NCBI GenBank assembly: GCA_016215115.1
Contig: JACRLN010000002.1
Coordinates: 1 to 64,000 of the forward strand
Source of the DNA: Nitrospirota bacterium
GTDB taxonomy: Bacteria > Nitrospirota > Thermodesulfovibrionia > UBA6902
Reading direction: 5' to 3'
DNA length: 64,000 nt
A program made the position numbers and the translations under genes. Shown one piece after another: positions 33,618 to 36,260 of this stretch. The notes under the pieces were generated by a model, which saw only the letters and a program-made list of their open reading frames with translations, searched no databases and was not told the DNA's origin. Position 1 is the stretch's first letter. Every line of letters begins with the position of its first letter.

Positions 33618-34787
33618 CTATGAAAGTTTTTCTTCTATCCATCTAAAAGGAAATAATATCTTGAAGATTGAGCCTTTGCCCATTTGGCTCTCCAAAGTCA
33701 CTTTTCCAAGATGCTCTGAAACTATCTGCTTTACCAGTGGTAAACCCAATCCGAACCCTTTCTCCTTCGTGGTAAAAAAGGGCTTGAATATGTTTTCATG
33801 ATCTTCCTTTGAAATTCCAGGCCCTGTATCTGATACAGCAAGAACGGCATTATTCTCATCCCCGTATGTCTCAACCATTATCCTGCCGCCACTTAATGCA
33901 GCGTCAATTGCATTTCTCATAACATGGTAAACTGCAACCCTTAAAAGATCCCTCTGCATATTGATCTTCAGAGCTTCCTTGAAAATATTTACTACCATTT
34001 CCACACCTTTATTAGAAGCCTCTTTCTTTATTATGGAAACAACGCTTTCAACAACCTTGTTTAAATCATAATGCTCAAATTGTGATTGCCTGTTTTTGAG
34101 TAATGCTTCAAATTCCTTTACTATTTCATCAAGCCGGTCTGCACCTTCAGCAATATATTTAAAGCTCTCTCTTAACTCTTCCGGAATATCCTGTTTTGCA
34201 AGTATCCTTCTGCATCTGGCGCCTATCATGGCAGCAGGATTTCTTACCCTGTCGGCTACGGTCAATGCCATCAGGCTCATCGTCCTTTCTGCTCCGATTG
34301 TTTCCAATTGCTGATTTAATTCCGTTAAATCGGCATTAATCGTATTAATCTTATACATCAGTCTTTCTTTTTCTTTCTCGGCCTGCTTCCTTTCAGTTAT
34401 ATCCCTCTGGACAGAAACCCAATGCAAAAATAAGCCTTTTTCATCGGCAAACGGAACAATATTGCACTCCACCCAAAATTCAGAACCGTCTTTTCTATAA
34501 TTAACAAGTTCCACCCTCACAGGCTTCCTCCGGTCAAATGCCTCACGAATTTTATTTACCTCTGCAAGGCTTGTATTGGGGCCGCGCAGCATCCTGAGCG
34601 TCCTGTCGAAAGCATCTTCGAAAGAATAGCCGGTCATCCTTGTAAACGCCTCGTTTACATAGAGGATCCGCCTTCCGGGCGCTTTACCGGGCTCTGCTTC
34701 CAAAATAATGATAGCATCATTTGCATTAGCTACCGCTGATTTAAGCAGTCTTAATTTTTCCTCTGATTCTTTTTGTGCTCTTATCAT
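33618..34787 (-). CDS. PAS/GHKL sensor protein lacking the H-box histidine
   Basis: This 389-residue cytoplasmic protein has one PAS domain (residues ~12-135), a coiled coil, a degenerate dimerisation helix pair and a HATPase domain (N box HVMRNAIDAAL, G1 DTGPGIS, F box FKPFFTTKE, G2 GFGLGLPLV). The helix reads MALTVADRVRNPAAMIG, where true kinases have AHEIRNP, so the phospho-acceptor His is replaced by Asp. The PAS domain resembles LOV (RGPNT, RKDGSEFWVECNIVPF, HWVSVQRDITERK) but lacks the photoactive Cys. It sits just upstream of gspD on the same strand, suggesting a link to secretion. Confidence 0.8.
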   Translation of the reverse strand: MIRAQKESEEKLRLLKSAVANANDAIIILEAEPGKAPGRRILYVNEAFTRMTGYSFEDAFDRTLRMLRGPNTSLAEVNKIREAFDRRKPVRVELVNYRKDGSEFWVECNIVPFADEKGLFLHWVSVQRDITERKQAEKEKERLMYKINTINADLTELNQQLETIGAERTMSLMALTVADRVRNPAAMIGARCRRILAKQDIPEELRESFKYIAEGADRLDEIVKEFEALLKNRQSQFEHYDLNKVVESVVSIIKKEASNKGVEMVVNIFKEALKINMQRDLLRVAVYHVMRNAIDAALSGGRIMVETYGDENNAVLAVSDTGPGISKEDHENIFKPFFTTKEKGFGLGLPLVKQIVSEHLGKVTLESQMGKGSIFKILFPFRWIEEKLS

Positions 34788-35075: not shown

Positions 35076-36260
35076 ATGTTTTCCATATTTTATAAAAAGA
35101 TTTTTGAGGAAAAGTGGCCTTCGGAACTCGGTGGAGTTTTACTGGCATTGCTGAATACACTGTTATTCCTGCATTCAGGACCTATTGCGGCAACAAACGC
35201 GGTTATCGCCGATTGGGGAAGATGGATATACAATGTTGCATTGCTGAACCTGCAGTCACCGGTGTATTTTTTGCAAACTTCAAGATATTTTCCGCAAAGC
35301 ATTATGTATATCGGCCTTATGTTGGGTGTTTTTTTGTCAGCGCTTCTTGCGAAACAGTTCAGTATAAAAAGGGATAAAACAGGCGGTTATATTCAGGGTT
35401 TTATCGGCGGGGCCTTGATGGGAATCGGCAGTTTCCTGGCCGGTGCCTGCATACTGGGCGGTTTATTTTCAGATATTATGGGGTTATCCTTAAGCGGCTT
35501 TGTTATGATGGCAGGGTTGTTAGCCGGTGCTTACATTGGTGGAATATTTGTGATGTGGCAGATAAACAGGCAGGCTGAAAAATTATTCAATCCTGATCAC
35601 TGTGAAGTAAAGACAGCATCAAAAGATTATATCGTCAAAAAAGATTATAGGGGCATACAGCCCAAAATTGCTATAACCGTAGCGCTTCTTTTATTGGCAA
35701 TTATTTCCATTGATAAACTTACCGGAACGGGATTTCCCTCCGCAGCGTTGCTGTCAGGTATCCTTTTTGGGATTATTTTTCAGAGGTCTGCATTCTGTTT
35801 TGTTGCTGCTTTCAGGGAAATCTTTCTCACCGGAACTACCCGTATGATGCGCAGTCTTATTATAAGCCTTTTAATCGGGGCCGCCGGTTTTTCGATTATC
35901 ATGGCTGCCGGACTTAGACCAACAGAAGTATATATCTTTCACACAAGCGGGCGTCTCCTCCTGGGCAGTGTGATATTTGGATTCGGCATGACCATCACCG
36001 GCGGCTGAATAAGCGGTATACTCTGGCGGTCTGCCGAAGGATATATAAGACACTGGTTTGCGTTGCTCGGCGCTATGTTTGTAGTTTGTTTAAGGTCGCC
36101 GCTTAACTCATTGCTGAAGGATACATGGTTCTATAATAGGTTTGAAGTGCTGCCCTATAAGTTTGGCTTCGGGAGTGCATTAATAACAACAATGACTATC
36201 CTGATTGCCATTTTAATGCTTCTTAAATGGATAGATTATAGAAAGCAGGTTAATACATAA
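35076..36260 (+). CDS. YeeE/YedE-family sulfur transporter, probable selenoprotein (UGA at 36006)
   Basis: The reading frame of 394 residues is interrupted once, by TGA at codon 311 (36006-36008). Both sides read as one YeeE/YedE (Sulf_transp) membrane protein: first-half GSFLAGACILGG, the QRSAFCFVAAFREIFLTG signature near 230, then GFGMTITGG-UGA-ISGILWRSAEGY and about 75 more residues with the last helix (LITTMTILIAILMLL). Relatives have Cys at this position (GGCASG-type). A hairpin with a GGUCU loop starts 16 nt after the UGA. I therefore read the UGA as selenocysteine. The alternative is a nonsense mutation. The ATG at 35076 follows a GGCGAG ribosome site. The substrate is probably thiosulfate or a related sulfur or selenium species. 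Confidence 0.78.
36017..36043 (+). promoter_or_regulatory. Candidate bacterial SECIS element
   Basis: In the mRNA just after the UGA, GGC (36025-36027) pairs with GCC (36033-36035) around the loop GGUCU (36028-36032). The stem extends below as CUCU/GAAG-type pairs (36021-36024 with 36036-36039, including one C-A mismatch and a U-G pair) and UAU/AUA. The loop lies 19 nt after the UGA. In E. coli fdhF the loop is also GGUCU, 18 nt after the UGA, with an unpaired U below the top stem as at 36024 here. Such a hairpin would bind SelB. Confidence 0.65.

Follow-up and report, generated by a model that had tools for sequence, protein, structure and literature searches.

The YeeE/YedE-family gene described here is very probably an intact selenoprotein gene, in which the UGA at codon 311 would be decoded as selenocysteine (Sec) by means of a downstream SECIS hairpin. 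Comparison with related sequences predicts a YedE-type membrane protein that carries Sec311 at the place of Cys91 of the thiosulfate transporter TsuA and may take part in the transfer of sulfane sulfur (or selenium). The gene lies in a window of 64,000 nucleotides, the whole stretch of Nitrospirota DNA that was analysed (contig JACRLN010000002.1, positions 1 to 64,000). The following features are referred to in the text (StTsuA, Spirochaeta thermophila TsuA):

33618–34787, minus strand: PAS sensor histidine kinase gene, divergently oriented and also adjacent in loci L031 and L082; listed for its position only
35076–36260, plus strand: YeeE/YedE-family membrane protein gene of 394 codons, with one in-frame TGA and a TAA stop; orthologues in L031, L032, L033 and L045
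35448–35450, plus strand: codon of Cys125, counterpart of StTsuA Cys293 (first relay Cys), with no variation among the aligned sequences
35796–35798, plus strand: codon of Cys241, aligned with StTsuA Cys22, the third relay Cys; Gly in the relatives from G160 and G328
36006–36008, plus strand: TGA codon of the proposed Sec311, which falls on Cys91 of StTsuA and Cys308 of E. coli YedE
36021–36039, plus strand: putative bacterial SECIS hairpin with arms CUCUGGC and GCCGAAG, loop GGUCU (36028–36032) and one C-A mismatch

Reading frame, conservation and decoding of the TGA codon

The ORF at 35076–36008 encodes 310 aa and is closed by the TGA, past which 83 more codons lead in frame to the TAA at 36258–36260. 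In a Pfam profile search the joined 394-aa protein matched PF04143 on either side of the TGA (E 1.2e-45), and its score of 156.8 bits was above the gathering cut-off of 27. The sequence-only reading had described a YeeE/YedE frame split by a single TGA, with a family-like continuation; both points are borne out, although its count of 84 further codons has to be corrected to 83. TGA also closes 12 others of the 42 listed ORFs of at least 200 aa in the window, in each of which the next stop is only 0–39 codons on, and TGA thus serves as an ordinary stop elsewhere; its use as a general sense codon is ruled out. One of these 12 ORFs is antisense to groEL.

An alignment revealed TGA at the identical codon in all 12 distinct genes, from seven Nitrospirota genomes. 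Besides the window gene, these are the orthologues in L031 (a Thermodesulfovibrionia MAG) and in G174, G268 and G324, all three from the genus of the window's genome (G174 holds the L032 contig, DYJL01000014.1, and G268 the L033 contig). The same genomes contribute five paralogues, and another genus (G160 and G328) the remaining two genes. Cys occupies this site in more distant relatives, namely those in Fermentibacterota, Thermoplasmatota and three further genomes of the family (Nitrospirota). The alignment thus supports the proposal of a UGA at a conserved redox Cys, and it includes homologues with the shared TGA, a search for which had been suggested in the sequence-only reading. The 12 genes formed a single fully supported group in a tree with long branches and an unfixed root, and a single gain of Sec in this group is likely. 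Silent divergence among them reaches near saturation, and dN/dS amounts to 0.06–0.33 past the TGA vs. 0.06–0.23 ahead of it.

The genome from which the window derives (2.82 Mb, 99% complete) contains selA, selB, selC and selD, the full set for which the sequence-only reading had suggested a search. The selA gene adjoins selB on contig C51, and a tRNA-Sec of 98 nt with a UCA anticodon is located on C53. Two selD genes have one in-frame TGA apiece, one of them reading GUASK, and of three formate dehydrogenases, two carry TGA and one carries Cys at the position known for Sec. A long, selC*-like tRNA-Cys with a GCA anticodon, which also matches the tRNA-Sec model, was found in the same genome (G000:C8:4547-4638 = L011:1500-1592), with the Cys-type formate dehydrogenase approximately 1.7 kb and one of the selD genes with TGA 3.8 kb further on; tRNAs of this kind have been reported from Nitrospirae (PMC7609411). 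No selA was found in G324, a 95% complete MAG with two TGA-containing YedE genes and a TGA-containing dsrE, which probably reflects a gap in the bin. In the decoding proposed for the window gene, SelA, SelB, tRNA-Sec and SelD would insert Sec at UGA 311, steered by the hairpin just downstream.

In the window gene, the GGUCU loop of this hairpin starts 19 nt past the TGA, at the distance given by the sequence-only reading, but in RNA folding the window sequence by itself is unremarkable: the 61-nt stretch 36000–36060 folded no better than its shuffles (z 0.14), and 53% of synonymous recodings of the hairpin folded equally well. Single-sequence folding therefore failed as proof of a SECIS, and the case rests on comparison. 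An Rfam search returned only sub-threshold chance matches. A loop with GU or GGU lies 19–20 nt from the UGA in 12 of 12 TGA genes, and the arms pair throughout in L031, as against the one C-A mismatch in the window gene. In L073 and L077 the stem occurs in a different register (UCGGCA-GGUC-UGCCGA), accompanied by a Trp to Gly change in the protein. The Ala codon of the stem is GCC in all 12 genes, in which GCC makes up 32% of Ala codons, and the Arg codon of the stem ends in GG throughout. The six-codon block from +9 ranked second of 143 blocks in synonymous conservation. By this comparison across relatives the putative SECIS is well supported.

Two other explanations of the TGA have to be considered. 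It could be a true stop in a decayed gene, or else a TGC or TGT misread in sequencing, and both the ordinary use of TGA as a stop in the window and the weakness of the hairpin in a single sequence would agree with this. However, the TGA is shared by 12 genes from seven genomes in spite of the near-saturated silent divergence, purifying selection persists past it, and independent assemblies carry it as well. The conserved TGA and the low downstream dN/dS exclude pseudogene and read error, and the relatives refute a true stop, the probability of which we regard as negligible. Nearly as improbable is the insertion of Cys or another amino acid by a suppressor or by the selC*-like tRNA-Cys, a type of tRNA that is known from Nitrospirae (PMC7609411) and makes such an insertion conceivable in this genome. 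The GCA anticodon of that tRNA does not read UGA; a regular tRNA-Sec with UCA is present in the genome, and its classical Sec genes selD and fdhA contain TGA. The reading of the TGA as Sec is thus strongly supported.

Predicted place of Sec311 in the cysteine relay

Residues 224–331 of the predicted protein align with residues 5–111 of S. thermophila TsuA (6leo), and residues 65–151 with residues 232–319, so that the two halves stand in swapped order relative to TsuA; the order is that of E. coli YedE, which aligned in one piece. According to the alignment, Sec311 corresponds to TsuA Cys91 and YedE Cys308, Cys241 to TsuA Cys22, and Cys125 to TsuA Cys293. The three Cys of TsuA lie in line across the membrane (PMC11073785), Cys91 and Cys293 have been reported as indispensable, and SoxT1B is inactivated by Cys-to-Ser replacement at all three sites (PMC11582611). 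Aligned with TsuA Cys91, the Sec would replace the middle residue of this three-Cys relay, in which Cys125 would be placed on the outer side, Sec311 in the middle and Cys241 on the cytoplasmic side. The cargo passed across the membrane may be sulfane sulfur, as thiosulfate or as polysulfide sulfur, or perhaps a form of selenium, and the selenolate would speed the hand-over at the middle site, either via hydrogen bonding or via a transient Se-S bond. An AlphaFold model built from 12 sequences (pLDDT 38) was too poor for use.

The closest known systems differ from the window protein in several respects. The TsuA/YeeE thiosulfate transporters (S. thermophila 6leo and E. coli TsuA) align half by half, with recovery of the Cys22, Cys91 and Cys293 sites, whereas the window protein has the halves swapped, Sec at the Cys91 site and no TsuB/YeeD partner adjoining. 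E. coli YedE and Campylobacter FdhT (NF033796) share its half order over most of the length, with all three Cys sites aligned (Cys132, Cys241 and Cys308 in YedE); however, the identity is 25%, the profile score is under the cut-off, and in YedE, which adjoins yedF, the Sec site is occupied by Cys. Among NCBIfam models, NF033796 (YedE/FdhT) was the best full-length match, at 142.4 bits vs. a cut-off of 350. The TsuA models NF052577 (98.7 vs. 400 bits) and NF041049 (81.1 vs. 645 bits) were likewise below their cut-offs, as was TIGR04112, the YedE putative selenium transporter (29.2 vs. 200 bits).

Whether such a variant had been described was left undecided in the sequence-only reading; in outline, it has. 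YeeE/YedE (PF04143) is listed as a selenoprotein family in reviews of 2022 and 2026 (PMC9312934 and PMC13188914), where it is mentioned briefly and entered in a table, with no functional study; the row in PMC13188914 cites the motif GUxSG and WP_012471001.1. YeeE is unnamed in the main texts of the primary sources of this row (PMC2398784 and PMC5029168). The window gene has a single Sec in the motif GUISG (GUVSG in the orthologues), which fits GUxSG, and it therefore belongs to this catalogued family. Compared by the table row only, it shares with WP_012471001.1 the Pfam family, the one Sec and the motif.

Gene neighbourhood and possible sulfur or selenium cargo

The neighbours that L031 and L082 share with the window gene are the sensor kinase, secretion genes and groESL; neither a sulfur gene nor a selenium gene was found beside it, and no selD, yedF or TsuB/YeeD adjoins the gene. 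Elsewhere in the same genome, two short adjoining YeeE half-proteins, PmpA/PmpB-like, are encoded in frames of 177 and 203 aa (G000:C19:5962-6992).

The Sec paralogues in L074–L077 are located beside DsrE-, DsrF- and DsrH-like genes, a gene for an SQR-like FAD protein and ArsR regulators. Next to the Sec-YedE paralogue in each of the four operons, a DsrE-like gene has an in-frame TGA of its own (L-UGGC), with a full-length frame beyond it:

L074, 4609–4962, minus strand: DsrE-like gene with its own TGA
L075, 6350: DsrE-like gene with its own TGA
L076, 6380: DsrE-like gene with its own TGA
L077, 6999–7280, minus strand: DsrE-like gene with its own TGA

DsrE-like selenoproteins with the UxxC motif are already known, and further TGA-containing dsrE copies were observed in G368, G223 and G140. 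The DsrE-Sec gene of these operons was not found in the window's genome, where only a distant version occurs, with no TGA in the match. A comparable arrangement is the YTD cluster, i.e., yeeE-tusA-dsrEFH type II, which belongs to sulfur disproportionators and cable bacteria (PMC13293266): both pair a YeeE/YedE protein with DsrEFH-type carriers, whereas L074–L077 have Sec in the transporter as well as in the DsrE-like carrier and include an SQR-like protein in the gene run. With their DsrE/DsrF/DsrH- and SQR-like neighbours, the paralogue operons suggest that sulfane sulfur is taken up and passed on.

The protein might instead, with Sec inserted, be a YedE/FdhT-like selenium transporter that serves selenoprotein synthesis rather than a sulfur importer. 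YedE has been proposed as a Se transporter (PMC5322559), the window protein has the half order of E. coli YedE, and its best full-length profile is that of YedE/FdhT, although at 142 bits the score is far under the cut-off of 350; a selenium role is on this account possible. The lack of selD or yedF beside the gene and the position of the Sec paralogues next to sulfur-carrier and SQR-like genes argue against it, and we consider such a role rather unlikely, though worth keeping in view beside sulfane-sulfur transfer.

Putative two-Sec relatives and implications

Six distant matches in other Nitrospirota (L083–L088, in G230, G264, G109, G118, G014 and G067) have two TGAs each, one at the site of TsuA Cys22 (QRGRY-U-MNSAFRDV) and one at the site of Cys293 (AGG-U-TVGH), and keep Cys at the Cys91 site. 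In L083, L084 and L086–L088, five of the six loci, the upstream ATG has a Shine-Dalgarno-like motif (AGGAGG or GGGAGG) in front of it, so the part ahead of the first TGA is probably translated in these. A GGU-loop hairpin of 5–7 bp follows the second TGA in most of these six genes, and a weak hairpin follows the first; selA is present in all six genomes. Within the family of G014 there are 14 genes with two TGAs, 18 matches with none and not a single one with one, and Cys-type paralogues coexist with the two-TGA genes in several of its genomes.

With Sec at the middle site in the YedE-type proteins and at the Cys22 and Cys293 sites in the TsuA-type proteins, all three relay Cys would be replaced across lineages. 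On balance, we lean towards a scenario in which Nitrospirota have rebuilt the relay with Sec at every site in different lineages (Cys91 in the YedE-type, Cys22 and Cys293 together in the TsuA-type) and in which, in some operons, a partner DsrE-like carrier has Sec at UGGC. Together these would form a transmembrane, selenium-based chain for sulfur hand-over, operating through covalent exchange or strong selenolate contacts. In the papers that were searched (main texts, largely outside subscription journals), nothing was found on forms with two Sec, on Sec in place of Cys22 or Cys293, or on YedE and DsrE paired as Sec proteins. The novelty is modest for the window gene and higher for the surrounding pattern, namely the Sec-YedE/DsrE pair and the two-Sec forms.

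Among the Sec proteins studied so far, soluble oxidoreductases form the majority. Sec within the pore of a transporter, where the corresponding TsuA residue is reported to be indispensable, suggests chemistry at this residue and not hydrogen bonding alone, and a comparison of Sec, Cys and Ser at this one site makes the mechanism of YeeE (hydrogen-bond relay vs. covalent transfer) testable. Such genes are truncated by gene callers for which UGA is a stop, so the extent of sulfur import may be underestimated in these bacteria.
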